Virus record (IMG/VR): IMGVR_UViG_3300020442_000563 | Span: 1 to 59,924 of that record | Reading direction: 5' to 3' (one strand) | Length of the DNA: 59,924 bases | Source: a virus | Part shown: one piece after another, positions 8,513 through 33,165 of the stretch | Position numbering within the stretch: the first letter of the stretch is position 1 | Layout: every line of letters begins with the position of its first letter | The notes under the pieces: generated by a model | The model's database searches: none | The model's input: only the letters and a program-made list of their open reading frames with translations | Told to the model about the DNA's origin: nothing | Made by a program: the position numbers and the translations under genes

Positions 8513-8520
8513 TATTTATT
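8513..8520 (-). promoter_or_regulatory. T4-type late promoter octamer ahead of gp13
   Basis: The minus strand reads AATAAATA at the end of the oxygenase gene, about 28 bases before the gp13 start. It would drive the neck and terminase operon (13-14-15-16) separately from the fibre genes. Confidence 0.5.
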
Positions 8521-9140
8521 CATTTAAAGAACGTTCCATAATCTATATGCACATTTGTTGCTATACAGATGCGATCTTCATTACCAAAATGAGGTGTTGT
8601 GGAGTGTGGTAACCAACCAGGAAATATCAAACCAAATCCTTCTACAGGACTATATCTCATAGGAGATGGCATCATATTCCTGTCAAATAGAGATGCAGGT
8701 CTTGGATCATGATATTCAAATACACCTTCATCTTGATACATCTTAGGAACTTTACAATAATAAACCGAAGATAAATCAGCGCCTGGATGCATGTGATACT
8801 TAGAACATGATCCAGAACCATAAATCATAGCCCATGAAGTCATTCTTGTATGTTCCCCTAAGACTGTATCACTAATACGAGGAACATACTCTAACACTAC
8901 TTCACTAATTTTTTTATGAAATTCTTTTATAAAAGGATTGTCTCTACGCAACAAATCATCTGGAGTATGGTATCCATTTACTCCAGACATAGATCTTTGT
9001 AATGATGGTTCGTTGTCTCTAATCTCATACAGAAACTTAACTAACCCTTCATTTAATTGTTTAGAATTTTCAATTTCAAATTTCCCCACTGGCGTAGGAA
9101 AAGCATTAGTTATCTCCATACAGTTCAATCTTTGTGGCAT
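8520..9140 (-). CDS. 2-oxoglutarate/Fe(II)-dependent oxygenase family protein
   Basis: The roughly 206-aa product has the FPTPVGKFE opening and double-stranded beta-helix motifs of phage-type 2OG-Fe(II) oxygenases. HMHPGADLSSVYY carries an H-x-D pair. LIFPGWLPHSTTPH carries the distal His, and RICIATNVHI the following Arg. Such enzymes hydroxylate a substrate using O2, 2-oxoglutarate and iron; the substrate here is unknown. The ATG at 9140 is used, with an alternative at 9119 (MEITNAF). No strong ribosome-binding site decides between them. The gene stands between a terminator and gp13. Cyanophages often carry several such genes, perhaps to modify virion proteins. Confidence 0.85.
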   Translation of the reverse strand: MPQRLNCMEITNAFPTPVGKFEIENSKQLNEGLVKFLYEIRDNEPSLQRSMSGVNGYHTPDDLLRRDNPFIKEFHKKISEVVLEYVPRISDTVLGEHTRMTSWAMIYGSGSCSKYHMHPGADLSSVYYCKVPKMYQDEGVFEYHDPRPASLFDRNMMPSPMRYSPVEGFGLIFPGWLPHSTTPHFGNEDRICIATNVHIDYGTFFK

Positions 9141-9170
9141 CAAACAATTAAATGATACCTATATTAGCAT

Positions 9171-10951: not shown

Positions 10952-13900
10952 TTATGCTAGATTCAAGAACTTCCAACCGTAAGTGCTGCCAGTGTAAACA
11001 AGGGAGAACGCATTGTTGGCACCGTCTACGGTCATGTCTTGAGCAATGTTCATAATATCTTGACCATTTCTAGCAATCACAAGTGGGTTTGTACCAAATG
11101 TACCAGCTAGATCCATGAAGGAGACCTCATCACCAACATTTGGACTTGAAGGTAATGTAATTGTAAGTGCAGAACTAGTAGTATCTACAAACAATCTATC
11201 TCCAGCAGATGCGATGTAATTGGCAGACTTGGTTGCCCATGGGTTACCACCACCAATACCACTCCAAGCAGTTCCGTTGTAACCTTCAAAACTGTTGCTG
11301 CTAGTGTTGAATCTCAACATACCAGCGGCACCTGTAGGTCTTTGGTTCTCTAGACCAGCTGGAACCTTAAGACTGCCAGTACCACTACAAGTCACATTGC
11401 CAGCTACTGTAAGTGCAGTTAGTGTACCAACAGATGTTAGTGAAGATGATGTAACTCCAGTACCAAGTCCACCACCTGTTAGAACATCAACATTACCAAT
11501 TCTAAATGCTAGACCAGCACTAAGATTGACTTTTTGGTTGAAGTCAAAACTATCATTGGCATTTGACCAAGTAATTGTTTTATCACTAGAACCCTTAAAT
11601 GTCAAACCTGCGCCATCACAAGTTGCGTCTGTTGGACTAGCAACCTTGGCAAGTTCAATGTTCTTATCAGCTACACTCAAAGTAGTAGAATCAACAGTAG
11701 TGGTTGTACCACTAACTGTTAGATTACCACCAACAGTGAGGTTACCTGCAACACTAGAAAGGTTATCAACGTAAGTCTTAACTGCTTTCTGAGTTGGAAC
11801 TTTAGAATCAGTATTCTGTGATAGAGATCCATCTGTTGAGAACTCATCAATTGTAGCACCCAACTGAGCACCAATAGCACCTAGTCTCAATGTATCAAGA
11901 CCAGTTAGGTCAAAGGCATTAGCATTTAGTGTTGCCTTACCAGTAGACTGCTCAACCTTGAAGAAGTTACCAACTGCAAAGTTACCATCTTGGTCAGTAG
12001 ATACGTAGTAAACACGACCTGGACGTAGTTCGTCAATTTCATAAGAAGGTTCATTCTGTTGTTGTGGAAGACCAGGCCAGTTTGTTTGTGCTCTGTTTCC
12101 AGTACCAACTTCTAGGAAGTCGTGTGCAGTTAGACGCACCTGTGAATATTGATAACGAATCCTAAAGTCTTGACCATCACCAGCAGGGACTACCTTCTCA
12201 TCAGATAGAGTTGCAATAACAATACCTGTATTGTCAGTAGTGACAGCGGTAATCTTCATGAACTCGTTGTCAATCTTGATGTAGTCACCTGCACCAAAAC
12301 TAACGTTTGAAGTCTTGACTCTGGCATTGCCAGTAACACCCATGTCTTCAATTAGTTCATCTTGTGTAGCAGACTTAGTACCAAGAATGATAATATTATC
12401 ACCAGATGTATGTGCTGCTGCTGTTGTTCCTTCTTGAGCACGTTCAACAGAAACTGTATCTGCATCAACGAAGGAAGCAATCTTGAATAGTTCTGTTCCT
12501 ACAATTAGATAACCATTAACAACCATGTGGGTAACAGCGTTAACGTCCATGTTAATAGGACCTGCTGCACCAGCAGAAATATTATTCTGCAACGTTGCTG
12601 TATTTGTATTGGTATCAAAGTAAGCAATCTGTGAAGTACCATCATGAGCAGCTGCGGTAGAACCTAACTGTGCTCTGTTGACTGTAAGAGTACCTCTACC
12701 ATCAGGTGTAGTGTAACTAGATTTTTGAATAACGTAAGAACTAGGATCGTTATTACTACCATTATCTACAAATTCAATAGAACCGCCTGGTGCAGGAGCA
12801 GCATCTAGTCCTTCCAAGATCATGACGAATCCCTTGGAACCAGTTACAGCGTTGCTAGACTCCAGAGTAATAGTTGCACCAGATGTAGCACCCGTAATAA
12901 CTTCACCATCTTGGAATGTGCCCTTAACAGGTAAGTAGTAGATGCGGTTTGCTTGAGCAGTTTGATCACTTCTTAAGTCACCGATAGCACCTGATGTACC
13001 ACCAGTAATTCTTTCACCCGCTGCAATGAATGTACCACTCTTAGCAGCTTGTGGATTTGTGGTAAGCATCAAACCTTCATTCTTACCATTCTTGGTAACT
13101 TCATCAGCATTGAATCCTCTAGATAAGCAACCATACTTACCATAAGAAGAGTTACCAGATACAGCACGAATCTTACCACCACCAGTGGAGACGTAAGAGA
13201 TGTGAGCATAGTAAGTGAAGCAAGACACAACTTCCATTGCAGAAGTGCCCTTACAATAGAATCCTACACCGCCCTCTAAGACCTGTGTGAAGGAGTCAAA
13301 CACCATTGACTTAAAGGAGGGGGTAGCAGAGTTATCAAAGTGCTTGTGGGCGTTTCCATCGCAGTATACGGAGACACCTGCACCACCGATAGCAGAGCAG
13401 TTTTGAACGTAAGGTGATTTTGTAATAGGAGAGTCTGGATCTAACTTAACATAGACACCTTTGATAGTAGAATTATCAATATCTTTATCATCGCTACCAT
13501 TAGGAACAAATCCTGTCATACCACCCATCAAAAAGTCTTTGATGATGGTGTGTGTTGCCATGAAGAACATGGTTGACTCTGCATTACTAACAGTAGTTGC
13601 AGTAGCGATGTTAATATATGGTTCTGTTTTGGTAGCATGAGTCATGTTACCATTTGCAGAAGCAGTTGTGATAATTGCTGCTAAAGTTGTAGCAGCACTA
13701 CGAACTTGAGCACACTTTGGATTTCCAGTATCACTAGTTCCAGTAAATCCAACAGGAGTTAAGTTGTTACCTGTTGAAGGTGAAATTGTTTCTCCATTGA
13801 ATAACTTAAGAGCATTATCTCTAATGTTATTAATTAAGAATTGGTCTTGTGCTTGAACACTAGTAATTGGTGTACCGCCAACAAACGCTGTACCATAATC

Positions 13901-15523
13901 ATGAACTTTATTGTTGCTACCGTGCTTGATGTTGTAACCTAAAGCATCAATAAACGCCTCTAGACGAGCCTCAATGGCGGATTGTGTGCCAGTAACATTT
14001 GATCCATTTGCTACATTGTACGCATAGTATGCTTCTCTAGCAAGGAACGCTTTGTTATTGATAACTAAATCACGACCATCTGCATGTTTATTATCTACAA
14101 TATCAACATACTTGTCGGTAGTAGTCCATGACCCACCAGAAACAGTAAGGATAGAAATTGTAGTTCCGACTTTATCAAGAACCTTTGCAACCTTAGATCC
14201 TGTTGAATCTGTAATAGTTTCGCCAAGTCTGATGTGAGAAACATCTTGAGCGAGAGCAAGATCTTGCTCATTAGAATTGCCAGATTTGGCATTAACAATG
14301 GTGTTTCTAATGTTATCACCAACTAAAGTTACATAGTTTGGTAGGTGAATTGGTAGTGTTTCATTGTAAACACCAGATTTCACATAGATTGTAACTGGAT
14401 TTGATGCTGATGGAGAAGCATTAGCAGAAACATAATCGGTAGCATATCTAATAGAAGCAAATGCTCTACTGATTTGATCACCAGCGTTTGCATCACTACC
14501 TTCTTCTGAAACGTAGTAAACTGTACCTGTTACGTTATTCTTTTCCCATCTTGGTAGTAATGGAGAACCACCAACTGTTAGAACTTGTCCACTTGCAGCA
14601 GCTTGTTCAGCAGCAGTACCAGTTGAACCAGCAGGAAGTGCAATTCTGTTAATACCAGATGCAGATTGATAAAGTAGGTCACCCTGTGTGGTTAATACCT
14701 GAGCAGCAGATCCACCTTGAGCAATGTAATTCCAGTAATTTCCTGAAGGATCATTTGCTGGAGATTTTGCAACTCCTTCTACATCATCAGCAATACAAAC
14801 ATAAGTGTTGCTGTTTGCAGTAACACAATCACCTTTTTGATAGACATTAGAAGCTGCCCAGTTACCATTCCACTCAAAACCTTTTGCTAATACATTCCAG
14901 TATGTAGTGTCGTGAGGTTTGTTACCGATAGAATTTAATTTACATTCGTAACTATAACCACCAAATCTAACAAGATCACCTGGAGCATAGTTAGTGGAAG
15001 CACTGTATACACCTTGGTTTTTGAAACCTGTTGTTAGTACATCCCAATTAGTAGGATCAAGGTTGGGAGAATCGGTAGCACCGCTATGATCTTTCTTAGC
15101 AGTATAAGTGTAACCACCGTAGTTTACAATATCACCTTTTTGGTAGACAGTTCCAGCAACCCAAGTGCTTTCAAATTTAAGACCTTCAACATAAGTTTCA
15201 AAATTGGCAGCAGCAAAAGAAGCACCAGAAGTATGTGCTGCAATAACACGGTATTGATTGTTACCATACTTAACTACGTCGTTAAGTTTGTACCAAGTAG
15301 AGGCAGCCCAATCCCCCTTGCTAGTTAGTCCTTCTGTGTGAAGAGACCAGTTACCAATATCAGAGGAATAGAATAAATTCTCATTCGCAGCTGCGGTGTG
15401 GTTAGTTGTACAAACATAGGAGTTTGCACCGTACTTGACAATATCGTCAATGACGTAAGAAGTGCCAGCTGCCCATGCACCTTGCCACTTAAACTTCAGT
15501 CTGCCGAGTCTAAAATCTGCCAT
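10952..15523 (-). CDS. Large tail fibre-like structural protein with pectate-lyase-like region (1523 aa)
   Basis: Residues 1 to about 275 hold at least five W...GTxYxxGDIVxYGxxxYxC units like carbohydrate-binding modules of the CBM5/12 type. A linker follows, then VYYVSEEGSDANAG and IYVKSGVYNETLPIHLPNY, typical of right-handed beta-helix (pectate-lyase-like) phage spikes. Near the C-terminus come KVPTQKAVKTYVDNL and VGGNLTVSGTTTTV, shared with two other fibre proteins here. The final module (LTITLPSSPNVGDEV) is shared with the glycine-rich protein. It is probably a receptor-binding or polysaccharide-binding virion protein. Enzymatic activity is not shown. Confidence 0.85.
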   Translation of the reverse strand: MADFRLGRLKFKWQGAWAAGTSYVIDDIVKYGANSYVCTTNHTAAANENLFYSSDIGNWSLHTEGLTSKGDWAASTWYKLNDVVKYGNNQYRVIAAHTSGASFAAANFETYVEGLKFESTWVAGTVYQKGDIVNYGGYTYTAKKDHSGATDSPNLDPTNWDVLTTGFKNQGVYSASTNYAPGDLVRFGGYSYECKLNSIGNKPHDTTYWNVLAKGFEWNGNWAASNVYQKGDCVTANSNTYVCIADDVEGVAKSPANDPSGNYWNYIAQGGSAAQVLTTQGDLLYQSASGINRIALPAGSTGTAAEQAAASGQVLTVGGSPLLPRWEKNNVTGTVYYVSEEGSDANAGDQISRAFASIRYATDYVSANASPSASNPVTIYVKSGVYNETLPIHLPNYVTLVGDNIRNTIVNAKSGNSNEQDLALAQDVSHIRLGETITDSTGSKVAKVLDKVGTTISILTVSGGSWTTTDKYVDIVDNKHADGRDLVINNKAFLAREAYYAYNVANGSNVTGTQSAIEARLEAFIDALGYNIKHGSNNKVHDYGTAFVGGTPITSVQAQDQFLINNIRDNALKLFNGETISPSTGNNLTPVGFTGTSDTGNPKCAQVRSAATTLAAIITTASANGNMTHATKTEPYINIATATTVSNAESTMFFMATHTIIKDFLMGGMTGFVPNGSDDKDIDNSTIKGVYVKLDPDSPITKSPYVQNCSAIGGAGVSVYCDGNAHKHFDNSATPSFKSMVFDSFTQVLEGGVGFYCKGTSAMEVVSCFTYYAHISYVSTGGGKIRAVSGNSSYGKYGCLSRGFNADEVTKNGKNEGLMLTTNPQAAKSGTFIAAGERITGGTSGAIGDLRSDQTAQANRIYYLPVKGTFQDGEVITGATSGATITLESSNAVTGSKGFVMILEGLDAAPAPGGSIEFVDNGSNNDPSSYVIQKSSYTTPDGRGTLTVNRAQLGSTAAAHDGTSQIAYFDTNTNTATLQNNISAGAAGPINMDVNAVTHMVVNGYLIVGTELFKIASFVDADTVSVERAQEGTTAAAHTSGDNIIILGTKSATQDELIEDMGVTGNARVKTSNVSFGAGDYIKIDNEFMKITAVTTDNTGIVIATLSDEKVVPAGDGQDFRIRYQYSQVRLTAHDFLEVGTGNRAQTNWPGLPQQQNEPSYEIDELRPGRVYYVSTDQDGNFAVGNFFKVEQSTGKATLNANAFDLTGLDTLRLGAIGAQLGATIDEFSTDGSLSQNTDSKVPTQKAVKTYVDNLSSVAGNLTVGGNLTVSGTTTTVDSTTLSVADKNIELAKVASPTDATCDGAGLTFKGSSDKTITWSNANDSFDFNQKVNLSAGLAFRIGNVDVLTGGGLGTGVTSSSLTSVGTLTALTVAGNVTCSGTGSLKVPAGLENQRPTGAAGMLRFNTSSNSFEGYNGTAWSGIGGGNPWATKSANYIASAGDRLFVDTTSSALTITLPSSPNVGDEVSFMDLAGTFGTNPLVIARNGQDIMNIAQDMTVDGANNAFSLVYTGSTYGWKFLNLA

Positions 15524-15534
15524 TTGTAAAAATC

Positions 15535-15900
15535 CTACTTAGGTCCGTTTGTTGTGTGATCATATGTTTTATTTAGTCTTGCGACTAAGTAACCCTCATC
15601 ATCAATAAAATAAGTCAAATTCCTAAAATCAAATCTGAATTGTTGATACTTATCGTTGGGGTCATTTGTATATGTTTTTGCTCCTGAATTGGCATTAACA
15701 TACTCAGTTCCCTGAAGGAAATCTGTATACTCTTCGCCATCAGTTCTGTGAAAATCAAAAACAGCATCTTCAGTAGACCTTGCTTTGGTGTAGTGAAGCA
15801 TACCATCCTTATCTCTACGAAGAGCATGAACAGTAAAATCGTTTGATTGTGCAACTGTCTGTCCGACAACAGCAGTACTTGCGCTTAGATATAAAGCCAT
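15535..15900 (-). CDS. Small structural-region protein of unknown function (121 aa)
   Basis: The start MALYLSASTAVVGQTVAQ at 15900 is chosen because TAATG overlaps the stop of the preceding gene by one base. A longer in-frame version to 15933 would run into that gene. The protein contains DFTVHALRRDKDGML, FDFHRTDGEEYTDF and a tail LVARLNKTYDHTTNGPK, and looks beta-rich. Placed between fibre genes, it is likely a small virion or fibre-accessory protein. Family not recognised. Confidence 0.7.
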   Translation of the reverse strand: MALYLSASTAVVGQTVAQSNDFTVHALRRDKDGMLHYTKARSTEDAVFDFHRTDGEEYTDFLQGTEYVNANSGAKTYTNDPNDKYQQFRFDFRNLTYFIDDEGYLVARLNKTYDHTTNGPK

Positions 15901-16361
15901 TACGCTAAAATCCTCCAGTGAGTTCCGTCCCAAACAAACTGGGCGTATAGTCCAGCAACATCAAGAATAAATGTGGTATCTGTACTTCCGAAAATATCCA
16001 GAAACTTCTGCGAACCACTTGCAGTTAAAGTTACATTATTTAGTGCCCACGTTGTTTTAAAGTCAACAACTTCAAGCATGTCTCCTATATGGGGGACAAC
16101 ACCATTTTGTTCATAGGGCATTGTTAGTGTTAGAGGTCCACCAGAGGTATCTAGCAGATATCTAAGTCCACAATCAAGTTGTCTGTTGGAATTGACATGT
16201 TCCCAACGAGCTCGTTGAAGTTCATATCCTCCAACATCAGTACCATCATGTACAACGGCAGTTTTTTTCTTGGTGTCAACTGTAATTTCAGCATTAGCAC
16301 CAGTAAACTGAGCGTGTTCAGTGGTAGTACCCTTCCTAAATTGTACTTGGGTTGTAGCCAT
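15900..16361 (-). CDS. Small fibre protein with an Mtd-N-like N-terminus (153 aa)
   Basis: The N-terminus MATTQVQFRKGTTTEHAQF, then AEITVDTKKKTAVVHDG, is the classic short beta motif of phage tail-fibre and major-tropism-determinant-type N-terminal domains. The rest (LTLTMPYEQNGVVPHIGDM, FVWDGTHWRILA) resembles the C-terminal beta module of the adjacent 1523-aa and glycine-rich proteins. It probably trimerises as a fibre component. A CATAAATA late-type octamer lies just upstream. No reverse transcriptase or variable repeat is nearby, so this is not evidence of a diversity-generating element. Confidence 0.75.
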   Translation of the reverse strand: MATTQVQFRKGTTTEHAQFTGANAEITVDTKKKTAVVHDGTDVGGYELQRARWEHVNSNRQLDCGLRYLLDTSGGPLTLTMPYEQNGVVPHIGDMLEVVDFKTTWALNNVTLTASGSQKFLDIFGSTDTTFILDVAGLYAQFVWDGTHWRILA

Positions 16362-16398: not shown

Positions 16399-19300
16399 TT
16401 AAATAATCCAGACCTGTGTAAATGGTGGTTGGAATAGTTGTACTTGTACTATTGCAATACCAGAAAGCCTGATGGTTCCGCTGCCTTGATATGGCGCACG
16501 TACATATGCGTCATCGGCATTATTAACATTAGAGATTCTACCAGAACCTTGATATGAGCGAGTACGGAGATCAATGCTATCTCCTGTAATATCAATCTCA
16601 ACTCTTGGTTGTTCAGCGAATGTGAGTAGTGGATCTCCAGATGTTCCTCTGATTGCAAGAGTTCCACCTGCACTGATAAGTTTGGATGCTCTTCTTTGTT
16701 GACCTTGACCTGTAAAGGAGAAGAGCATTTGCTCTTCTGTTGGATTGAAGGTAAGAGATTCTGCTGCACCAGATAGTTTTCTGAGTGAACCAAATCCAAC
16801 AAAGTCTCTTGCTCTGACGACAGTTGCATCTCCAGAAACTCTTGCTGTACCAGAACCAATGTATACAGGAGAGAAACGTGCAACAGAATCGCCAAGTGTT
16901 CTGACTGTTCCTTGACCAACTTTGTCTCTTGCTCTTGTAGTCGTAGCCTGACCCAAGATAGAGAAGAGCATTTGCTTCTCGTCTGGGTTGACTGTAATAG
17001 ACTCCGCTGCACCACTGAGTTTTCTGAGAGAACCAGATCCAATGTAAGGTCTGCTGCGTGCAATATCGCCATCGCCATATACTCTGAATAGAGATGGCAA
17101 TGTAGTAATATCAATTGCTCTAGATTCTGCTGCACCACTGAGTTTTCTAAGTGAACCAGATCCAGCAAAGTCTCTTGCTCTAACTGCGTTGGCATCACCA
17201 GTAACGAAGATAGTACCCGAACCAATATTGTTTGGAACGAGAACAATTCTTGCATCACCACTGAGTTTGACAGTTCCACCCTTACTAATTTCTCTAGCAA
17301 GTCTGCTTTCAGAACCTTGACCTGTGAAGGAGAAGAGCATTTGCTCTTCTGTAGGATTAACAGTGAGAGACTCAGCAGCACCACTGAATTTCTTAAGTGA
17401 ACCAGAACCAATCCAAACTGGAGCGAATCTATATGCTGCGTAAACACGAACCTTGATTCCACCAGAAGTATTCCAGTTAGGTACGAATCTGATATCCGAA
17501 GCTTCTGGATATATTTTGAGTCCACCAGATCCAACTTCAACAGAAGTAACTGCATCACTTCCTTGACCTGTGAAGGAGAAGAGCATTTGACGCTCTTCTG
17601 GATTGAAGGTAAGTGCTTCGGCAGCGCCACTGAATTTCTTGAATGTTCCAGAACCGACGTGAGATACAGATCTGACATTGAGAGATATGCCAGAAACTGT
17701 GAACAGACCAGTAGTTTCGTATGCAGCAGCAGATACAACTGTTGCACTATTGAAGCTGAATAGTCTGCCGTCTCCTTCTGGAGGAACTGCAACTGTTCTC
17801 TCGGATCCTGTTCCTGTAAAGGAGAATAGAAGTTGTCTTTCGTCTGGGTTGACTGTAATAGACTCGGCAGCACCGCTGAATTTCCTGAGAGAACCAGAAC
17901 CAATATGGCGTAAAGTTGCTCTTGCAAATACATCTCCAGAAATTGCAACACGAACTTCTGGTTGCTCTGCGAATGTAAGAATTTCTGGTTCTGTTGTCCC
18001 ACGAAGACGAAGTTCTGCAACTTCTTCTGGAGGATTTGCAGAGAATACTTCCGTTCCAGATCCAGTAAAGGAGAAGAGCATTTGCTTCTCTTCTGGATTG
18101 AACGTGATGGATTCTGCTGCTCCAGAGAATTTCTTGAATGTTCCAGAACCAATGTATACAGGAGAGAATCTTGCATCTGCAACACCAGAAATTGCAATGC
18201 GAACTTCTGGTTGCTCTGCGAATGTACGAATTTCTGGAGCAGTAGAACCAGATAGACGAATTTCTGTTCCTTTCTCTGGTGGATTTGCAACAAAGACTTC
18301 TGCACCAACTCCAGTAAAGGAGAAGAGCATCTGTCTTTCCAGTGGATTGAATGTTGCAGACTCTGCTGCACCACTGAATTTTCTGAGAGAACCAGATCCA
18401 ACATGACTTGCTGGAGTAAAGGATTCTTGCTTCGTTCCAGATACGGTAATGATACCTGAGCCTGGATGTAGAAGACTGAATAATGTATATCCTTCCGATC
18501 CAAATCTGAAGAGACCACCAGAAACTGCACCAATTGATGTAGATTCTGCTGCACCTGAGAATGCATAAAGTACACCAGATCCAATATGTGGTGCTGGAGT
18601 ATAAGATTCTGTTGCTGTACCTGTAATATTGGACAGACCATCCGCAAGATATGGAGGAGTCCAGAAAGTTTTTGCTTCACCAAATAGTGTGATACCAGAC
18701 TTACCACTAACGGCAAGACCAGTAGAGACAATATTCTCAACGTAGTGTGTCTTAGCAACACCTGTAATTTTGAATGCACCAAATGGACATTTCTTAGAAC
18801 GAGTTCCAAGAATGTGTCCGTAATCTCTTCTTTCTGGTGCATTCGCTTCAGAAACAAGACCGTAATCTTCAGTAACAGATGGAGTTGTTAACTGATTTGG
18901 AATTGTATATGTAACACCTGGTGCAATAGCAAGTGTTGTATTAGGTGCAACCTTGATACAACCATTTGCAGCAGTTGTGTTTGTGGATATAGTTCCACTA
19001 TTCTGAACACAATTAGTTAGATTTTGATTAACAAGATCACCGTAATCAAGATCTACATCATCTACACATGCAGAATTATTATATGCCTCTGTATGTTTCT
19101 CGTGAGATTCTTCAAGGTTTAACCACTTGAGTTGTACAGGACCAAGGTTGGTATTTGCTTGGTTGTAGAAATCAATGTTGCCGAGATTAATGTAAGCATT
19201 GTAAAGACTGTAGAAGTCAAGAGTAAATGCTCCAAGTTCACTAAGCTCGTATGTTTGTGGTTTTCTTGGATTAACATTGAGTGTACCACTACCAACATAA

Positions 19301-21600
19301 TCAAATGTCTGTTTGACATCTTCAACTTTGGCAAAGTTTCTAAGTAATCCAGAACCAGTATACTCGTAAGTATTTTTGACAACAGCTCCACCTGTAAAGG
19401 AGAAGAGCATTTGTTTCTCTTCTGGATTAAAGGTGAGAGATTCTGCTGCACCAGAGAATTTCTTGAGTGAACCAGAACCGACATAAGATTCTGTATGCTT
19501 CTCAACGAGAACACCAGAAATTCTGTATAGTCCTGTGGTGTGTTGAGCACTCCAGCGTATTGACTCTGCTGCACCTGAAAGTGTGGAAAGTCTTCCAGAT
19601 CCAATTTCTCTGAATGTAGAACTTTCTTTTCCGAGTCCAGCAAAGGAGAACAGAATTTGTTCTTCTGTTGGATTGAAGGTAAGAGATTCTGCTGCACCAC
19701 TGAATTTCTTGAGAGATCCAGAACCAACAAAGTCTCTTGCTCTAGTTGTAGTAGCAAGTGATAAGAATCTGAACAGACCATCTACACCAAGAGCAGCAGA
19801 TGTTGTTTCAGCAGCACCACCTGCTGTAAAGAGAATACCACTACCTTCTTCAGAAACATCAAGTGGTAATGAAGTCTTACCAAGAATCTTGAAGATTGGT
19901 GGTTCGCCAGTACTTGTCCAATCGTAAACACGAAGAGGAATAACCTCAACTTGAGAAGTAAATCGTAGACCGAGACCGTAAGGTCTTCTTAGATCACTTC
20001 TCTCTCCAAGTATCCAACCATGATCAATTCTTGGGGCAGCAGCCTCAGCAACATTTCCATAATCAATGTAATCAGATGGTGTTGTTTGTACTGTTGGAAT
20101 TCCATAAGTAACACCTGGCGCAATAGCAAGTGTAGTGCCAGGTGCAACCTTAGTACATCCAGTAGATGCTGTAGTATTTGTGGATATAGTTCCACTGACA
20201 GCAGTACAATTGGATACATTTTGATTAATAAGGAATCCATAGTCAACGTCTTTGTATGGAACAAACGCTGTCTGACTAAAGACATCAGTGTGCTTCTCGT
20301 GTGAAGTCTCGTTAAATTGTTTGAGTAGAACATTACCAACTTTTGTGGTAGCATTCCATCTATTAGTATTATCGCCAGGATCTCGCCAGTATTTTCCTAG
20401 AGCTTGATCAATCTCTAGTGTGAGGTTTGCAAGTTCTCCTAACTCATAGGTTACTGGTTTCCTTGGTTTTAACTTAAGGACACCACCAGAACCAGTGTAA
20501 TCAAATGTATTCTTAACATCCTCAACCTTAGCAAAGTTCTTAAGTCTTCCAGAACCTACGTAAGTTTCAGTATGTTTTTCTGCTGTGATACCGCCAACAA
20601 ACGAGAACAGCATTTGCTTCTCGTCTGGATTAAATGTAGAGGACTCGGCGGAACCACCAAATTTTCTAAGATTACCATCACCAGAAGTGATCGCAGTAAT
20701 AACTGGAATTCCGTTACCATCAAGATGAAGGGTTCCACCCTCGCTGAAGTAGAAGCGAGGGATGGATTCTCCTCCAGTACCAGAAATATGGAAACTTCGG
20801 ACCTTCCCATCCACAATATATCCATATATTGCAGGAGATACTTGAGCACCAAATTTCTTGAGTCTACCAGAACCAACCCAAGAGTTGGTTGCTCTCGCCT
20901 GTGCCTCGCCAATAATTTTCTTGAATCCGAAGCGAGTTACAAATCCATCTAGGATATGTCCGTAATTCTCTTCGCCACTTCCATGCTCTTCAGCAACACT
21001 ACCATAATCATTGGTTATTGTTGCATTAGCAGTTATCAATCCATAATCTAATTCGTTATAATCTTCTGTATAATCAGGTTCGTAGTTATAAACTCTACAT
21101 TCAGCAGCACCAACGAACCTTGATATTGGTTGCCATACATCAAATACAAACTGGAACGAATCAATTCTTCTCGCACCAATTCCAGCATTGATTACAGAAG
21201 GACCATGTTGTCCTACTGTTTCTGATATATTACCTGCTTCATAGGAGTATACACATACTCCACCACTACACACAATACTTGTTACAGGTTGAGATTTGGT
21301 AAACGTTGTTGCAGCGCCACCAATTAAAAATCTTCCTCTAGAACCAACAACAAAAATACCACCAGTTGCTATTTGAGTATCATTACCAACACCACTTCCT
21401 TTTACCTGAGATCCAATTCCATATGAACCATATTCTCCAACAGTTCCATATGTAACTTCTTCAATTCTCTGAGTTTGTTTTGTATCTTCCCACCAATCAT
21501 CCAGAGTATATGAAACATTCAAGTCGCCAACAGTCAGATCCCGATAATCAGAAAGATATCGGGATGTTCTGCCGCCTGATTTGTAGGAGAAACTTGTCAT
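16399..21600 (-). CDS. Giant tandem-repeat structural protein (1733 aa)
   Basis: The product is built from many copies of a unit with the cores GSGSLRKFSGAAES, NPxEEQMLFSFTG and a variable 20-40 residue link. I count about 13 SGAAES-type copies, several nearly identical. Two longer internal blocks share CTAVSGTISTNTTAS-like and PGVTYxIP motifs. The N-terminus (MTSFSYKSGGRTSRYLSDY) is unique. The ending, PPFTQVWII, is hydrophobic. Such repeats suggest an elongated, beta-rich fibre or sheath-like appendage. I know no T4 equivalent. A large overlapping open frame opposite in phase comes from the repetition and is not treated as a gene. Confidence 0.8.
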   Translation of the reverse strand: MTSFSYKSGGRTSRYLSDYRDLTVGDLNVSYTLDDWWEDTKQTQRIEEVTYGTVGEYGSYGIGSQVKGSGVGNDTQIATGGIFVVGSRGRFLIGGAATTFTKSQPVTSIVCSGGVCVYSYEAGNISETVGQHGPSVINAGIGARRIDSFQFVFDVWQPISRFVGAAECRVYNYEPDYTEDYNELDYGLITANATITNDYGSVAEEHGSGEENYGHILDGFVTRFGFKKIIGEAQARATNSWVGSGRLKKFGAQVSPAIYGYIVDGKVRSFHISGTGGESIPRFYFSEGGTLHLDGNGIPVITAITSGDGNLRKFGGSAESSTFNPDEKQMLFSFVGGITAEKHTETYVGSGRLKNFAKVEDVKNTFDYTGSGGVLKLKPRKPVTYELGELANLTLEIDQALGKYWRDPGDNTNRWNATTKVGNVLLKQFNETSHEKHTDVFSQTAFVPYKDVDYGFLINQNVSNCTAVSGTISTNTTASTGCTKVAPGTTLAIAPGVTYGIPTVQTTPSDYIDYGNVAEAAAPRIDHGWILGERSDLRRPYGLGLRFTSQVEVIPLRVYDWTSTGEPPIFKILGKTSLPLDVSEEGSGILFTAGGAAETTSAALGVDGLFRFLSLATTTRARDFVGSGSLKKFSGAAESLTFNPTEEQILFSFAGLGKESSTFREIGSGRLSTLSGAAESIRWSAQHTTGLYRISGVLVEKHTESYVGSGSLKKFSGAAESLTFNPEEKQMLFSFTGGAVVKNTYEYTGSGLLRNFAKVEDVKQTFDYVGSGTLNVNPRKPQTYELSELGAFTLDFYSLYNAYINLGNIDFYNQANTNLGPVQLKWLNLEESHEKHTEAYNNSACVDDVDLDYGDLVNQNLTNCVQNSGTISTNTTAANGCIKVAPNTTLAIAPGVTYTIPNQLTTPSVTEDYGLVSEANAPERRDYGHILGTRSKKCPFGAFKITGVAKTHYVENIVSTGLAVSGKSGITLFGEAKTFWTPPYLADGLSNITGTATESYTPAPHIGSGVLYAFSGAAESTSIGAVSGGLFRFGSEGYTLFSLLHPGSGIITVSGTKQESFTPASHVGSGSLRKFSGAAESATFNPLERQMLFSFTGVGAEVFVANPPEKGTEIRLSGSTAPEIRTFAEQPEVRIAISGVADARFSPVYIGSGTFKKFSGAAESITFNPEEKQMLFSFTGSGTEVFSANPPEEVAELRLRGTTEPEILTFAEQPEVRVAISGDVFARATLRHIGSGSLRKFSGAAESITVNPDERQLLFSFTGTGSERTVAVPPEGDGRLFSFNSATVVSAAAYETTGLFTVSGISLNVRSVSHVGSGTFKKFSGAAEALTFNPEERQMLFSFTGQGSDAVTSVEVGSGGLKIYPEASDIRFVPNWNTSGGIKVRVYAAYRFAPVWIGSGSLKKFSGAAESLTVNPTEEQMLFSFTGQGSESRLAREISKGGTVKLSGDARIVLVPNNIGSGTIFVTGDANAVRARDFAGSGSLRKLSGAAESRAIDITTLPSLFRVYGDGDIARSRPYIGSGSLRKLSGAAESITVNPDEKQMLFSILGQATTTRARDKVGQGTVRTLGDSVARFSPVYIGSGTARVSGDATVVRARDFVGFGSLRKLSGAAESLTFNPTEEQMLFSFTGQGQQRRASKLISAGGTLAIRGTSGDPLLTFAEQPRVEIDITGDSIDLRTRSYQGSGRISNVNNADDAYVRAPYQGSGTIRLSGIAIVQVQLFQPPFTQVWII
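16700..20700 (-). repeat. In-frame DNA repeats coding the SGAAES/LFSFTG units
   Basis: The repeated protein units are also similar at DNA level. Strings such as gagaagagcatttg recur along the gene wherever MLFSF is coded, with a spacing that is not constant. Such tracts invite unequal recombination and could change the number of units between relatives. The boundaries given are approximate. Confidence 0.6.
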
Positions 21601-21688: not shown

Positions 21689-23137
21689 TCAGTCTAGGCT
21701 GACGTTTAGAGTAACTTTAATCTGGTCACCGTTGTTTTGAATAGCGTAAGGACCATTTGTAAACTGTTCAGCGAAGAAGATGCTGCTATAAAGAGTGGCA
21801 TCTCCTGTTCCAGATAGAGCTGGAGTTGTAGTAAATGTACTAGAAGAAGGAACAGTATGAACTGTGTAATGTTGTGCAGTGATTGTACTTGTAGTACCTT
21901 GTGCAATGTAGATAACATCACCAGGATTCAGACCGTGAGCAACAGCAGAACCACTAGGATCTGTAGTCATGACTGAATAATCAAAGTCTACTTTATCGTT
22001 GCTACTTGCTGTACCTACGTTATCTGTAAGTTGATTGCTTAGGTAAACACGAGGACCGATGTCACCTGCTTTCTTAGCAAAATCAATACCAACAATAGTT
22101 GTATTTGCAGGGAATGCATCAGGACCTGTTTGACCAGAACCACCAGTTTTAGTAACTGCTTGACCAACAGTTAGTTCTTTGGCAACATCTGGAATGAAAG
22201 TAGCATCTCCAGAAGCATTACCACCTGTAACTGGTTTATCAATGTAGATGTTCTGACCATCAATACCAGAAACACGTGTCTCAGCAGGAATGTTAGTTCC
22301 AGAAACTCTTTGACCAACTGCGATGGAAGATAGATTGCCACCAGCAGCAACACCTAGAACAAATGCGTTTTGAGCACCACTAGAAATTGCTTGAGTGAAA
22401 GGAGTTTCAATTAGTTCAATGTAGTCGTTACCGATAACACCTTTACAACCTGCTTTTTCAATTGAAGTTCCAAGAGCAGCAACAGTACCACCGTCAACAA
22501 CACCTTGAAGTGCAACTGGCATATTGTTTGCACGTGCTAGATAGTAACCATAAACATTACCAGCAGCAGAAGTGAACGTAAAGATCTGCTCAGGATAAGA
22601 AGCAGTTGTTCTACCTCTACCAAAAGAACATGCTGTACCAGCAGTAATAGTGGCAGTTAGTTTCTGACTTAGTTCAATATTGGCACCATCAATATCAACA
22701 ACATAGGTATTATCAGGAATTCCTGAGGCAACGGCGTAGTCACCTTTTTTAATATCTGTATTAGAAGCAACGGTAATCTGGTATGTACCAGTAGTACCAG
22801 CACAAGTTGTGTTAGCAACGGCAGAAGCGGTAGTAGCAATCGTCCATCTGTTACCATTAAGGAGGATTCCGTACTGTGCATCAAAATCTTGATTCTCCTC
22901 AGTTCTGTTGTTTACAACAAGAGGATATCCTGTAGTAGGTGCAGATCCATACCCACTGTTGTTAGTGGCATTATATGGTTCAAAATACTTTGTCGCAGAA
23001 GGAACGTCCTGCTCTGACGGAGCCGTAGCAGGTCCAGTGTAGAGCTTCAATACCAAGTTCCTTGGAATTTCATGTGTCGCATTCAATAAGGTGCGGAGTG
23101 AATCAATCTCACCCTGATCGGTAACTAGCAGTGCCAT
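21689..23137 (-). CDS. Virion structural protein of cyanophage type (482 aa)
   Basis: The product starts MALLVTDQGEIDSLRTLL and continues ATHEIPRNLVLKLYTGP. It is beta-rich with alternating Val/Thr strands and DGQNIYIDKPVTGG-type turns, and has no signal peptide. Both the order among fibre genes and the composition fit a virion protein. It is followed by a terminator, and an AATAAATA octamer lies just beyond its upstream end. A specific role (collar, whisker or fibre) cannot be read from the sequence. Confidence 0.75.
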   Translation of the reverse strand: MALLVTDQGEIDSLRTLLNATHEIPRNLVLKLYTGPATAPSEQDVPSATKYFEPYNATNNSGYGSAPTTGYPLVVNNRTEENQDFDAQYGILLNGNRWTIATTASAVANTTCAGTTGTYQITVASNTDIKKGDYAVASGIPDNTYVVDIDGANIELSQKLTATITAGTACSFGRGRTTASYPEQIFTFTSAAGNVYGYYLARANNMPVALQGVVDGGTVAALGTSIEKAGCKGVIGNDYIELIETPFTQAISSGAQNAFVLGVAAGGNLSSIAVGQRVSGTNIPAETRVSGIDGQNIYIDKPVTGGNASGDATFIPDVAKELTVGQAVTKTGGSGQTGPDAFPANTTIVGIDFAKKAGDIGPRVYLSNQLTDNVGTASSNDKVDFDYSVMTTDPSGSAVAHGLNPGDVIYIAQGTTSTITAQHYTVHTVPSSSTFTTTPALSGTGDATLYSSIFFAEQFTNGPYAIQNNGDQIKVTLNVSLD

Positions 23138-23164: not shown

Positions 23165-23172
23165 TATTTATT
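23165..23172 (-). promoter_or_regulatory. Late-type promoter octamer AATAAATA
   Basis: The minus strand reads AATAAATA at the end of the 241-aa gene, about 28 bases before the 482-aa gene starts. This is the usual distance seen at other late octamers in this window. Confidence 0.5.
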
Positions 23173-23896
23173 AAAGTGCTAGCTTCATAGAAACTACGCA
23201 CCTCTGTATATTTATAGCATAAACAATCTCAAATTGCAAAATGTCTCCAGCAGTCAATGCTGTGTTCCAAGTTGAGAGTGTTGTATTTGTATTAATACGT
23301 TGTCTTGTTCCTTGAGAAATGTCTCCCAAAGTTGGTCTTTCCGTCCCGCAAATAGATGAATAATTGGGGAAATTAGCGTAATCAACCTTCTTAACATCAA
23401 ACTGAACTTGTGCTTCTTGATCGCCAATAATTGTCCACGATTCAATTTTTCCAGAAACATCTAGAGTCATTTCTCCTTTGATTCCAGAAGACATTGGTGC
23501 GGAACCAGCGTCAACAACAAAGTTAATTGTTCTTGTTAAATCAGCAGTAGTAGAGAGTCCTACTACATAAACTTTTTGTCCACTTGTAGGTGGAGTAGTG
23601 AATACAATATTTGTTCCACTAACACTATAATCTATGCCAGGAACTTGAACCAACCCATCAAGAGCAACAATTAATTGTTGATCATTTGCAGGAGTGTATG
23701 GATCATTTCCAGGATCAATTAATGGATATAATGTGGTTGTCCCATCAAACACCCAATTTGTTGTATTGAGTATTTCATTACCATATTGAAGATACTTACT
23801 AGGTATCTCATAGTTAACACCAACAGCATACTTCTTCTGTGGTTCTGATAGAACCTGATAGTTAGAAGATTTTACTGATACATTATACTTAGGCAT
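23171..23896 (-). CDS. Virion structural protein of unknown function (241 aa)
   Basis: The N-terminus MPKYNVSVKSSNYQVLSEPQ is followed by DQQLIVALDGLVQVPGIDY and VVGLSTTADLTRTINF. A YSVSGTNIVFTTPP segment resembles beta units in the gp7-like protein (AYTVSGSNITFAQPP), a repeated phage motif for baseplate-attached or fibre proteins. It shares a base with the 111-aa gene upstream. Function unknown. Confidence 0.7.
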   Translation of the reverse strand: MPKYNVSVKSSNYQVLSEPQKKYAVGVNYEIPSKYLQYGNEILNTTNWVFDGTTTLYPLIDPGNDPYTPANDQQLIVALDGLVQVPGIDYSVSGTNIVFTTPPTSGQKVYVVGLSTTADLTRTINFVVDAGSAPMSSGIKGEMTLDVSGKIESWTIIGDQEAQVQFDVKKVDYANFPNYSSICGTERPTLGDISQGTRQRINTNTTLSTWNTALTAGDILQFEIVYAINIQRCVVSMKLAL

Positions 23897-24231
23897 TATG
23901 TAACTCCTGGCGTTACTTCAATAATACCTTCTATAACACGTGTCTTAATACTTTGAGGTGATGTCAATACAATATCATAAACATATCGTCTTGCTTCTAA
24001 TGCTGCTGTATTTGCATTAGTCAACCCAATTTTTAATATCCCATTATAACGATCAACAAAAGTTACAACAAAATCTGTCGCAGTTGTAGAATAATAACTA
24101 CGACGCATTTTTGCAGCTGCTGTATAACCAGTTAAATTAAGTGGAGTGGTATTATCTTCGTTCTGGATGTTAAAGGTGGCATCAAAGTCCGTTCCTTTTT
24201 CCAGCAATAGATTTAACGGAATTGCTGCCAT
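23896..24231 (-). CDS. Small virion protein, Ig-like N-terminal domain type (111 aa)
   Basis: The pattern LLLEKGTDFDATFNI, LNLTGYTAAAKMRRSYYS and RYVYDIVLTSPQSIKTRV fits short phage baseplate-upper or Ig-like N-terminal domains that join fibres to the baseplate. It shares one base with the following 241-aa gene, so the pair is coupled. The family link is tentative because the match rests on general pattern. Confidence 0.6.
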   Translation of the reverse strand: MAAIPLNLLLEKGTDFDATFNIQNEDNTTPLNLTGYTAAAKMRRSYYSTTATDFVVTFVDRYNGILKIGLTNANTAALEARRYVYDIVLTSPQSIKTRVIEGIIEVTPGVT

Positions 24232-24237
24232 AATTCA

Positions 24238-24759
24238 TCAATATAAGTATTCGTAGATTGACATAATAGAACCATACTGGTTATTTCTACTGTCCTCATT
24301 GTTGTTTGGGTTCCAAACTTCAAATGGTTTATTACCACTACCACCATCTTTGGTAGACCATCCAACATACCAGTTTCTACTGCCAGCAGCCAACTCTTGA
24401 GAGGAATCGGTATTATCAATGATACGATGTACGTACAAAATAAATCTTGCCCATGGTTGATTTTCGTTTACACCAGAATAATGAACTCCTCTATGTCTTG
24501 GACTATCGTTATTAGTGTTCGCTCCATCTAAATTGAAATAAATACCACACTGGTCGGAATAGTTATTGGCACCAGGAAGCATACCTTCCGCTAAAATCCA
24601 CGAAGTATTAGCATCATACTGTTTAGTAAAACTACCTGACCAGATATTTGCAGCAGAAGAGTCTGAAAGATTAGTTCTAGTGTCATTTCTAAATCTAGTA
24701 ACCTTTACTAGTTTATCTTGTACACTATCATCAGGTACGTGTAGTAATTTTCTTGCCAT
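24238..24759 (-). CDS. Fibre-region paralogue A (173 aa)
   Basis: The N-terminus MARKLLHVPDDSVQDKLV is the first of three related short proteins in a row. All are 170-190 aa, open with (M)AR-LL-P/V-type sequence, contain GMxxxxYSxQCGI or related blocks, and end in YEYLY, VYEIAR or VWEIAY. The C-terminal YVGWSTKDGGSGNKPFEVW matches the sibling at 24762. They are probably trimeric fibre components or tips. Function unknown. Confidence 0.7.
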   Translation of the reverse strand: MARKLLHVPDDSVQDKLVKVTRFRNDTRTNLSDSSAANIWSGSFTKQYDANTSWILAEGMLPGANNYSDQCGIYFNLDGANTNNDSPRHRGVHYSGVNENQPWARFILYVHRIIDNTDSSQELAAGSRNWYVGWSTKDGGSGNKPFEVWNPNNNEDSRNNQYGSIMSIYEYLY

Positions 24760-24761
24760 GA

Positions 24762-25313
24762 TTACCTCGCAATCTCGTAAACTAGAATATGGGATCCTGT
24801 TTGGTGGTGCCTACTATTGTTTGAACTATTTGGGTTTAAGTGTGTAGTTGGTCTAACATTAGTGTTAGCATTCCATCCAATATCTAGACGGTGATTTCCA
24901 ACCCCAAGATCAAAAGTTTTAAAGGACTTATGAACAATGAAAGTAGTTCTTTCATTATTACTGCCTGTATTAACACCACAGTAGTAAATACCTCCACCTG
25001 CTGGACCTGTTGGATGTCCACTAACTCCTGATGGTGAAGAGTTGTATCCATATCCAATTTGATCAATGGTGCAACACATACCAATATGTGGATAGTTATC
25101 CATACCAAGACCACCCATTACGCCAGTAACGAGGATATAGGAAGTTGCATTATCTTTTAACTTAGTAAAAACAAAATTATTTACTAATGCAGATCTTCCA
25201 GTAGCACCTGAAGAAGGACTGAGATCTCTACGAGATTCCTCTCTATATTTGCTGATATTTATAATACCCTTTGAAGGTGCAGCTGCGGGTACGTTAAGTA
25301 ATAGTCTAGCCAT
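24762..25313 (-). CDS. Fibre-region paralogue B (183 aa)
   Basis: The start MARLLLNVPAAAPSKGII at 25313 is used because TAATG overlaps the stop of the gene upstream by one base; a version from 25352 would intrude on that gene. It shares the N-terminus, the NFVFTKLKDNATSYILV-like strands, the HRLDIGWNANTNVRPT block and the ILVYEIAR end with its siblings. It is part of a three-gene paralogue set. Confidence 0.7.
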   Translation of the reverse strand: MARLLLNVPAAAPSKGIINISKYREESRRDLSPSSGATGRSALVNNFVFTKLKDNATSYILVTGVMGGLGMDNYPHIGMCCTIDQIGYGYNSSPSGVSGHPTGPAGGGIYYCGVNTGSNNERTTFIVHKSFKTFDLGVGNHRLDIGWNANTNVRPTTHLNPNSSNNSRHHQTGSHILVYEIAR

Positions 25314-25888
25314 TAGTATGCAATCTCCCAAACTCTTAAGTAACCATACCACCTTTCTTCACCCCTTTGATCCATAGTTCCTGTGTTTGAACCGTTGGTG
25401 CCACTACCTGATCTTGGGTTTGGACACCACGTGTGTCCTGGTCTATTGTTACCACCATCATTAGTTTCCCAACGAATGACAATAGGAACAGTGCCTATGC
25501 CTATATTAGAGGAAGAAATATTTGGAGAACGTCCATCCAATGTTTCGGAGTGTGCATAATTTTGATGAGTATATAAAGCAAATTCTCTTTCAGAATTACC
25601 CGTCATTCCCCAGTGATAATTAGAACCATTGTACTTATCTGACGTTTGATTTAACGCTCTAATGCATGGTGATGGAGCATATGAATATGCTTCCAAAGCA
25701 TTACAATGAGCAGTAAAGTACAAATATGTTTCGTTCGCTGCTTTTACTTTCGGATAGTTATAAGTGTATAACGTATAATTTGTAACGTCACTATTTAATG
25801 GACCAACCTGCGACATAATATACTCACCAGTAGAAACTAATTTAGAAGCTACTGATTTTGGTGGCGGATTTTTAATTGCTCTTCCCAT
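25313..25888 (-). CDS. Fibre-region paralogue C (191 aa)
   Basis: The product begins MGRAIKNPPPKSVASKLV and ends RVWEIAY, matching its two downstream siblings in overall plan though most diverged. It contains SEREFALYTHQNYAHSETL and VPIVIRWETNDGGNNRPGH. The three genes run head to tail with 0-2 base gaps. An AGGAGGT ribosome-binding site lies about seven bases before the ATG. A triple tandem set of receptor-type proteins may present alternative tips. Confidence 0.7.
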   Translation of the reverse strand: MGRAIKNPPPKSVASKLVSTGEYIMSQVGPLNSDVTNYTLYTYNYPKVKAANETYLYFTAHCNALEAYSYAPSPCIRALNQTSDKYNGSNYHWGMTGNSEREFALYTHQNYAHSETLDGRSPNISSSNIGIGTVPIVIRWETNDGGNNRPGHTWCPNPRSGSGTNGSNTGTMDQRGEERWYGYLRVWEIAY

Positions 25889-25920
25889 GATGGTGTTACC
25901 TCCTGTTTATTTGATTTTTA

Positions 25921-26232
25921 TCAGGATAATTCAACACCCCAACATACAAACGCTACGTCTCCGTTAACGGAAGTAACGTCAATTTTGTCGCCAGTTTTTA
26001 GAACAATACCAGTTCTTTCAATAACAGAACTAGCTGCTACGTCAGTACCTGATTCAATTTCGTGTTGAGTTCCACGTGTGTCCCCTTGAGGAACTGCGGC
26101 GATAGAAACATCAGTAGTAGAACCAGCTCTGTTACATGCAGAAATGTTGATAACAATTCCTGTTGATGCAGTAAAGAGAGTAGTCCATGAGTTGGATGCT
26201 GGTTTGGATGCCGCCTGTAGTCCAGATGCCAT
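25921..26232 (-). CDS. Small virion-type protein (103 aa)
   Basis: The product begins MASGLQAASKPASNSWTTLF and is a single beta-rich domain: VINISACNRAGSTTDVSI, KTGDKIDVTSVNGDVAFVCWG. It has the size of a fibre-attached domain or small cement protein. A perfect TATAAATA octamer lies about 27 bases upstream, so it heads an operon. Function unknown. Confidence 0.7.
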   Translation of the reverse strand: MASGLQAASKPASNSWTTLFTASTGIVINISACNRAGSTTDVSIAAVPQGDTRGTQHEIESGTDVAASSVIERTGIVLKTGDKIDVTSVNGDVAFVCWGVELS

Positions 26233-31915: not shown

Positions 31916-32114
31916 CAGGATCCACCAATTGTTTTAATAGAGATTTGATCTCACTCATCTCACCTTTAAGATAATCTAATTCATGTTTCATATTTTGAAA
32001 CTTTGATTTAGATCTCTTGTATTTCTCAAAAGAAGACCTATCGGTATTTATGATAGCGCCAGAATTCACATCCCTGTAGAGATGATCATTATCTTTAACT
32101 TTTAAATGATCCAT
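31887..32114 (-). CDS. Small coiled-coil protein of unknown function (75 aa)
   Basis: Starting MDHLKVKDNDHLYRDVNS, the protein has a YRDxxSGAIINTDRSSFEKY motif. A C-terminal heptad-like helix (MKHELDYLKGEMSEIKSLL) follows. It overlaps the collar fibre gene by 29 bases and shares a base with the LamG-like gene. Its size and coiled coil suggest a fibre chaperone or attachment peptide. I do not recognise a named family. Confidence 0.65.
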   Translation of the reverse strand: MDHLKVKDNDHLYRDVNSGAIINTDRSSFEKYKRSKSKFQNMKHELDYLKGEMSEIKSLLKQLVDPDGITERPKN

Positions 32115-33007
32115 TATAATCCGAATCTTCCTTTCTCAGCATTCCAATGTGCAGCAATCTCTTGATTTGATAATGATCTATTGTAGATTCTAACAATAGC
32201 AACTTTACCTTCTAATCTTTCGTAATCATCTGCTCTTGATGCAATAGCAAATCCAGTACTACTTGAGACTGCCATACTACTACCCTGACTATGACTACCT
32301 TTCAATGAGTTATTAACCCACCAATAGTGAGTGCCACCAGTATACTGCCATACACAATGGAACCAAACATTATCACCAAATGAATCCCAGTCTCTATCAC
32401 CAGAACCAGCACTAACTCCAGAACTATTAAAGTGGAACTGACCACCAGGATCTACAATATGGTTAAACTGATTAGGGAATCCACTACCATATCGTGATAC
32501 AAGTACATCTCTTCCAGATCCATTGTACATGTACCACCCTTCAATACACAAAGAAGCAGTATTTAATTTATCTGACATCGCAGGGTTTCCACTACCTGCA
32601 CCAACAGTAATTCTACAATTATTAGTGTAAGTGTCTATATGTCCACCATTAGCAGTCTTATAATTAAAAGATCCACCATTCAAGTTTACTGGAGTATTAG
32701 ATGAACTACTACCCCAATCTGTTGAACTATGGTCTAATGCTGCTGCTAATGATGTTGAACCAGTAATTTGTTGATTATCAGAATAAGACAGTCTTCCAAA
32801 ATCAAGGTCCATCAATAAACCAGATCCAGGACCTTGAGAATAAGCAGCACCTCCACCTAATGCACTCCATGCAGAACCATCCCATGCTTTAAGTTTATCA
32901 TCAGTTGTATTGTAAACAATACTACCCTCGTCATTTGCTCCAAGTCCACTTGGATCTGAGGATTCTGGTCCGTAAATTCTTCTGTTTCCTACGTAAATTG
33001 GTGACAT
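32114..33007 (-). CDS. LamG/concanavalin-like lectin-domain fibre protein (297 aa)
   Basis: The start MSPIYVGNRRIYGP at 33007 is chosen because GAGGATAAT precedes it at proper distance; an in-frame start at 33034 overlaps more of the preceding small gene. Residues 1-70 are a small beta unit with SIVYNTTDDKLKAWDGSAW, like the fibre shaft repeats. The rest is a jelly-roll lectin pattern: SLCIEGWYMYNGSGRDVLV, HYWWVNNSLKG and the LamG end VAIVRIYNRSLSNQEI. It probably binds host glycans. No catalytic site is apparent. Confidence 0.78.
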   Translation of the reverse strand: MSPIYVGNRRIYGPESSDPSGLGANDEGSIVYNTTDDKLKAWDGSAWSALGGGAAYSQGPGSGLLMDLDFGRLSYSDNQQITGSTSLAAALDHSSTDWGSSSSNTPVNLNGGSFNYKTANGGHIDTYTNNCRITVGAGSGNPAMSDKLNTASLCIEGWYMYNGSGRDVLVSRYGSGFPNQFNHIVDPGGQFHFNSSGVSAGSGDRDWDSFGDNVWFHCVWQYTGGTHYWWVNNSLKGSHSQGSSMAVSSSTGFAIASRADDYERLEGKVAIVRIYNRSLSNQEIAAHWNAEKGRFGL

Positions 33008-33018
33008 ATTATCCTCTA

Positions 33019-33165
33019 TTAAGCATCCACCCAAGCGGTTCCATTATAAACTTTTAGTTTATTTTCGGTGGTATTATAGTATTCATCTCCTTCTGTTGGA
33101 GCAGGGGATGTTGGAGCAGAACTAGATTCAGCGTAATACTTACGACCGCCAATGTGTAGTGGCAT
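33019..33165 (-). CDS. Small fibre-unit protein (48 aa)
   Basis: ATG 33165 overlaps the TGA of the 634-aa fibre gene in an ATGA junction. The product begins MPLHIGGRKYYAESSSAP and ends YNTTENKLKVYNGTAWVDA, which matches the N-terminal unit of the LamG-like neighbour. It seems to be a free-standing copy of the shaft unit. It might be a short capping or accessory protein, or a remnant of a split fibre gene. Confidence 0.7.
   Translation of the reverse strand: MPLHIGGRKYYAESSSAPTSPAPTEGDEYYNTTENKLKVYNGTAWVDA

Follow-up and report, generated by a model that had tools for sequence, protein, structure and literature searches.

Among the closest described systems are the T4 gp12 and gp34 shafts, whose quasi-repeats contain an alpha-helix and whose triple beta-helix has no clear motifs at the sequence level (PMC3004832, PMC5537660). 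In gp34, about 370 residues rise over 18 nm (PMC5537660). A virion proteome has been reported for S-CREM2 (PMC10665884), a phage whose proteins in the slot described below are not homologous to the protein studied here. Like the gp12 and gp34 shafts, which are long repetitive virion fibres, this protein is long and repetitive.

The repeat-protein gene and its family

We analysed a window of 59,924 nucleotides (positions 1 to 59,924 of IMG/VR virus record IMGVR_UViG_3300020442_000563), which contains the following gene:

16399..21600, minus strand: repeat protein, 1733 aa, family phrog_11522 (open reading frame; PHROG E 1.4e-175; 68 IMG/VR loci)

The single 1733-aa reading frame of the preliminary description was recovered intact, with its ATG at 21600 and its stop at 16399-16401. 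Among named families only phrog_11522 was matched; it carries no functional annotation, and its profile covered most of the protein in nine stretches. One scan of viral contigs returned the 68 distinct IMG/VR loci, and among genome contigs a single match was obtained, to a 9.3-kb contig from a metagenome-assembled Synechococcus genome. Clear isolate homologues occur in the Synechococcus phages S-CAM1 and S-CAM3, and divergent homologues lie in the same slot of S-SCSM2R, S-SSM7 and Sf-FS3; a query with the S-SSM7 protein yielded 52 further loci. P-SSM2 gene 298, at the corresponding position upstream of a hoc-like gene and annotated as a proximal tail fibre, was found to be unrelated, and S-CREM2 virion ORF130 was likewise rejected as a homologue. 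In the single-cell virus Marine virus AG-345-P14, the two contigs (MH319765 and MH319766) terminate in the partner genes on either side, upstream and downstream, and this assembly appears to break at the repeat-protein gene.

Gene neighbourhood

The gene order is gp6, gp7, gp8, gp10-like, fibres, the repeat-protein gene, fibres, gp13, gp14 and gp15. The slot between the gp10-like gene and gp13 corresponds to the gp11/gp12/wac stretch of T4. The gene sits in the tail gene block alongside fibre genes, as would be expected of a virion tail fibre, and it belongs to a conserved cassette:

23896..24231, minus strand: small L-shaped tail fibre assembly / LtfC-like protein (phrog_3304, E 2.7e-23; 39/39 relatives with room)
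23171..23896, minus strand: upstream virion structural protein family phrog_10330 (241 aa; 47/47 relatives with room)
21689..23137, minus strand: upstream partner gene, phrog_10467 (482 aa; 51/51 relatives with room)
15900..16361, minus strand: downstream tail protein with Mtd_N domain (64/64 relatives with room)
15535..15933, minus strand: downstream 132-aa gene, phrog_8997 (63/64 relatives with room)
10952..15523, minus strand: downstream 1523-aa tail fibre, phrog_9851 (five CBM5/12 matches; 64/64 relatives with room)

The Pfam LtfC score of the LtfC-like protein is below its cut-off. Mtd_N denotes the domain at the N-terminus of the major tropism determinant of Bordetella phage. In the 1523-aa fibre, the best of the five CBM5/12 (carbohydrate-binding) matches lies at the N-terminus. 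S-SSM7 genes 107-113 follow the gene order of the window, and one of them is labelled a structural protein. Elsewhere in the window, all on the minus strand, a 2OG-Fe(II) oxygenase-like gene (8520-9143) lies between the tail-fibre genes and gp13, four consecutive reading frames of 173, 196, 191 and 103 aa (24238-26232) gave no PHROG match at E 1e-5, and a protein with a Laminin_G_3 / concanavalin-like lectin domain (32114-33034) is encoded among the fibre genes.

The gene order and the fibre-type neighbours favour a baseplate-linked side fibre. A virion protein decorating the head, collar or whiskers instead would accord with the T4 slot, which also holds wac (whiskers), with an S-CAM1 neighbour annotated as possible hoc, and with neighbours that fall in head-and-packaging PHROGs; however, the immediate neighbours bear tail-fibre, Mtd_N and LtfC-like signatures, and we regard such a decoration as unlikely. 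Our searches returned no mass-spectrometry record or proteome of a phage with a phrog_11522-type protein, and the lack of proteomic evidence for virion presence would suit a non-virion or secreted adhesin-like protein. This is nevertheless very improbable, given that the gene is inside the virion gene block in all relatives with room and is co-conserved with structural genes. We infer that the product is located in the virion as part of a side fibre.

A 20.6-residue register in the C-terminal array

The C-terminal part of the protein is organised as follows:

16402..18345, minus strand: C-terminal array, 31 units of ~20.6 aa, conserved length (residues 1086-1733)
16402..16449, minus strand: conserved C-terminal end VQVQLFQPPxxQVWII (residues 1718-1733)

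The approximately 13 SGAAES/LFSFTG copies described previously were confirmed as 13 matches to GxGxxxx[FL]xGx[AS]E and 14 LFSF-like strands. They are the best-conserved members of a finer ~20.6-aa repeat, of which 31 consecutive units occupy residues 1093-1733 (19-22 aa per unit; mean 20.57, SD 0.62), each with a central strand hxhx[G]. The unit profile matched the protein 38 times, compared to a total of 3 matches over 50 shuffled copies. The hxhxG spectrum peaked at 20.54 aa with a power of 18.7 (at most 6.8 in 200 shuffles), and the large neighbouring virion genes showed no comparable peak. Across the family, the A-to-B spacing was 24 in 555 of 574 cases and the A-to-A spacing was mostly 40-41 or 81-83. 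The hydrophobicity peaks at 10.25, 8.18, 13.7 and 4.09 aa each correspond to a fraction of 41 aa, the pattern that four strand-turn elements in every 41 residues should produce. The turns are G/S-rich, and the array contains no Cys.

Position-specific sequence is kept only in the last four to five units; in the other units, identity shifts from one position to the next. The C-termini of distant relatives read YVVII, YVTII, FTIIV or YGWII. The statement that the protein consists almost wholly of one unit was too strong: residues 1-1040 contain other material and, as a block, give no 20.6-aa signal. Recent tandem expansion was also rejected, as no repeat exceeded the TRF threshold and the synonymous sites of the copies are well diverged. 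Where the SGAAES copies have an identical residue, the codon is shared in only 57% of cases versus 44% expected from codon usage. The repeats are accordingly not recent DNA duplications.

The S-SSM7 clade aligned end to end with the window type (profile probability 99.95%, E 1.2e-37, 24% identity), and its averaged spectrum peaked at 20.66 aa. In S-SSM7 alone, the power at the pre-specified 20.6 aa was 6.6, which is only suggestive since shuffles exceeded this value at other periods; taken singly, the Sf-FS3 and S-SCSM2R sequences gave no clear 20.6-aa peak. As the S-SSM7 clade keeps the period and the profile match without the SGAAES consensus, the structural constraint probably acts on the 20.6-aa register, with SGAAES/LFSFTG as the form that this register takes in one lineage.

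A fixed rod and a variable number of DYG modules

The N-terminal 1040 residues hold a conserved region and two copies of a different module of ~100 aa with [DE]YG motifs (DYG module), present in 1-6 copies per protein within a 30-member clade:

20776..21048, minus strand: conserved N-terminal region with DYG motifs (residues 185-275, family alignment)
19990..20298, minus strand: DYG module copy 1 (residues 435-537)
18790..19101, minus strand: DYG module copy 2 (residues 834-937)

We measured distances from the C-terminus on 34 complete, non-redundant proteins. The SGAAES-type units were located at 132-133, 213-216, 254-257, 336-341, 418-422, 499-505 and 581-593 residues in 30 of the 34, and the unit at 254-257 was absent in a few proteins. 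The last 694 residues aligned nearly without gaps in the 34 relatives; the more distant L063 and L068 required 94-residue insertions and deletions in the C-terminal alignment. Family members range from 1450 to 2359 aa, and this variation is N-terminal and tracks the DYG module copies. Within the 30-member clade, whose proteins are related to each other, total length correlated with DYG module number (r = 0.92, 199 aa per module). The SGAAES copy number showed no such relation to length (r = 0.10, all 34 proteins). These results contradict the earlier suggestion that SGAAES copy number sets length or valency, as the C-terminal copies are fixed in number and position; a setting of this kind may instead apply to the DYG module, which varies in number.

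Three relatives (L028, L024 and L056) carry 5-6 DYG modules. Several modules of L028 are closest to each other, which suggests module duplication inside that lineage. Flank distances indicated a constant gene length among S-CAM1 isolates and among S-CAM3 isolates.

Fold and proposed assembly

Residues 1040-1733 (694 aa) were modelled with AF2 as a single chain using 37 alignment rows, giving a pLDDT of 25.8. Eight units (168 aa) modelled as a single chain with a 137-row repeat alignment reached a pLDDT of 55.7 and a pTM of 0.14, with no secondary structure assigned. The preliminary description had named the absence of a stable predicted fold as evidence against it; taken literally, no such fold was obtained in either run, but single-chain predictions are uninformative for an obligate oligomer. 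Nor do the failed predictions prove an oligomer. Failure with 137 rows is a weak, negative argument for strand pairing between chains, as a propeller or solenoid would usually do better, and a chain without secondary structure would agree with strands that pair solely between chains, as they do in the triple beta-helix of T4 gp34 (PMC5537660). Searches with phmmer and profiles gave no significant match to solved fibre structures or the PDB, and Pfam returned no family match and no known fibre fold.

The 41-aa period with about four strand-sized elements could also describe a string of TolB/WD40-like beta-propeller blades, each of 41 aa and four strands, that forms no fibre; the NPDEKQMLFSF motif is superficially PD40-like, and the S-SCSM2R relative is annotated TolB. 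However, no propeller family was found in Pfam or PHROGs, the Pfam propeller repeat was not matched, the PDB gave no match, the 137-row AF2 run (pLDDT 55.7) produced no secondary structure or closed domain, and the 31-unit run is unbroken. We therefore consider blades distinctly unlikely.

Our preferred reading, which we hold to be somewhat probable, is that the protein forms the structural shaft of a side fibre (tail fibre) of a T4-like marine cyanophage, with a C-terminal rod that is probably paired between chains, most likely as a homotrimer. Of the shapes proposed earlier, a long fibre fits the position in the virion block and the long repetitive structure, and sheath or lattice found no support. 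The constant rod would comprise ~31 beta-strand/turn units of 20.6 aa, arranged as 41-aa pairs, and would assemble by strand pairing between chains. N-terminal to the rod, the length of a segment would be set by the 1-6 inserted DYG modules, and the cassette (LtfC-like protein, structural protein, Mtd_N protein and CBM-bearing fibre) would supply attachment and tip. If the T4 gp34 rise applied, the array might span very roughly 30 nm.

Depletion of out-of-frame stops in the array

A second open frame overlies the array:

16449..18857, minus strand: 802-aa same-strand +1 open frame over the array, probably not a gene (shows out-of-frame stop depletion)

As a null, we permuted codons between positions that encode the same amino acid over the last 800 codons. 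In the window gene, 1 stop was seen in the +1 frame compared to 16.4 expected, and 34 in the +2 frame compared to 61 expected, while the antisense frames were not depleted in this permutation. The +1 depletion was present in all slot genes tested (weakest in S-SCSM2R, 10 vs 16.6) and in 13/13 additional S-SSM7-type loci with ~24% profile identity to the window type; L119 had 0 of 10 and 0 of 55 out-of-frame stops. No depletion was seen in about 40 further genes from these phages, among them those for sheath, tube, portal and capsid, or in the fibre genes of P-SSM2 and S-CREM2. Over the family arrays, 25 +1 stops were observed for 356 expected (+2: 551/1157), with permutation z-scores that carry no phylogenetic correction although related sequences are not independent. 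Unit-like segments further upstream were also depleted (+1: 35/144), compared to 206/256 in the DYG modules and 153/100 in the first 150 codons. The stop depletion goes with the repeats.

With counts normalised to control genes, TAG (3 vs 73) and TAA (5 vs 72) showed by far the strongest depletion among +1 triplets. In the array, A/G hardly ever follows a Leu/Ile/Val codon that ends in A, a combination that would give +1 TAA/TAG: in the window array 1 stood before A/G and 24 before C/T (p 8e-10), with corresponding counts of 0 vs 17 in S-CAM1, 1 vs 17 in S-SSM7 and 0 vs 13 in L119. Odds ratios for T-A-R contexts were 0.00-0.03 in seven arrays compared to 0.38-0.97 in control genes, whereas C-A-R contexts, which make no stop, were not avoided in arrays (0.67-1.94).

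Several explanations were rejected. An overlapping +1 gene behind the 802-aa frame was discounted because +1 amino-acid identity equalled the null and many relatives carry interruptions in the frame; over the array, synonymous identity was not clearly raised. Compensated frameshifts or frame swapping left no trace: across 459 close alignments no stretch longer than 37 nt was out of frame, and no alternative frame matched a main frame. High expression is contradicted by the sheath, tube and capsid genes, which lack the avoidance, and homopolymer avoidance is genome-wide and hence not specific. Shared repeat ancestry is unlikely to be responsible, since the arrays of S-SSM7, L119 and L121 are for the most part not repetitive at the DNA level.

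The PE_PGRS genes of Mycobacterium tuberculosis are repetitive and likewise depleted in out-of-frame stops, largely as a passive GC effect (PMC13328622). Unlike them, the cyanophage array has a local GC of 38-49%, and its depletion exceeds the codon-usage permutation. We regard the depletion as a robust constraint. As a tentative explanation, to which we give limited weight, the array could be under selection to stay stop-free in its unused forward frames. Translation of its mRNA in other frames may be frequent enough to have consequences, whether as a buffer against frameshifts in a long subunit or through alternative-frame products whose sequence is unconstrained; we know of no such mechanism described for phage fibres. 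Array-confined stop avoidance in lineages with strongly diverged proteins runs contrary to the expectation of the ambush hypothesis, and it could bring to light either frameshifting or a novel constraint acting on structural genes with repeats.

Comparison with known systems

S-CAM1 C030809_099 (2130 aa, phrog_11522) shows homology along most of its sequence (E 1.4e-175) and lies in the same cassette; it differs in having 7 SGAAES copies and no DYG module of the window type. SSSM7_110, Sf-FS3_93 and S-SCSM2R_111 share the slot and neighbours of the window gene and differ in lacking the SGAAES/LFSFTG consensus, and the C-terminal end of the S-SSM7 clade is hydrophobic, similar to that of the window protein. 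The gene slot matches that of T4 gp12, with no detectable homology to gp12 or gp34; the earlier remark that no named T4 counterpart is known fits the fibre reading. An abundant, unnamed marine phage family thereby gains an anatomy of a fixed rod and a variable module count, and a giant repeat protein becomes the source of testable claims on fibre length and valency. The protein is genuine, of fibre type and regular in structure, with one unusual property at the nucleotide level.
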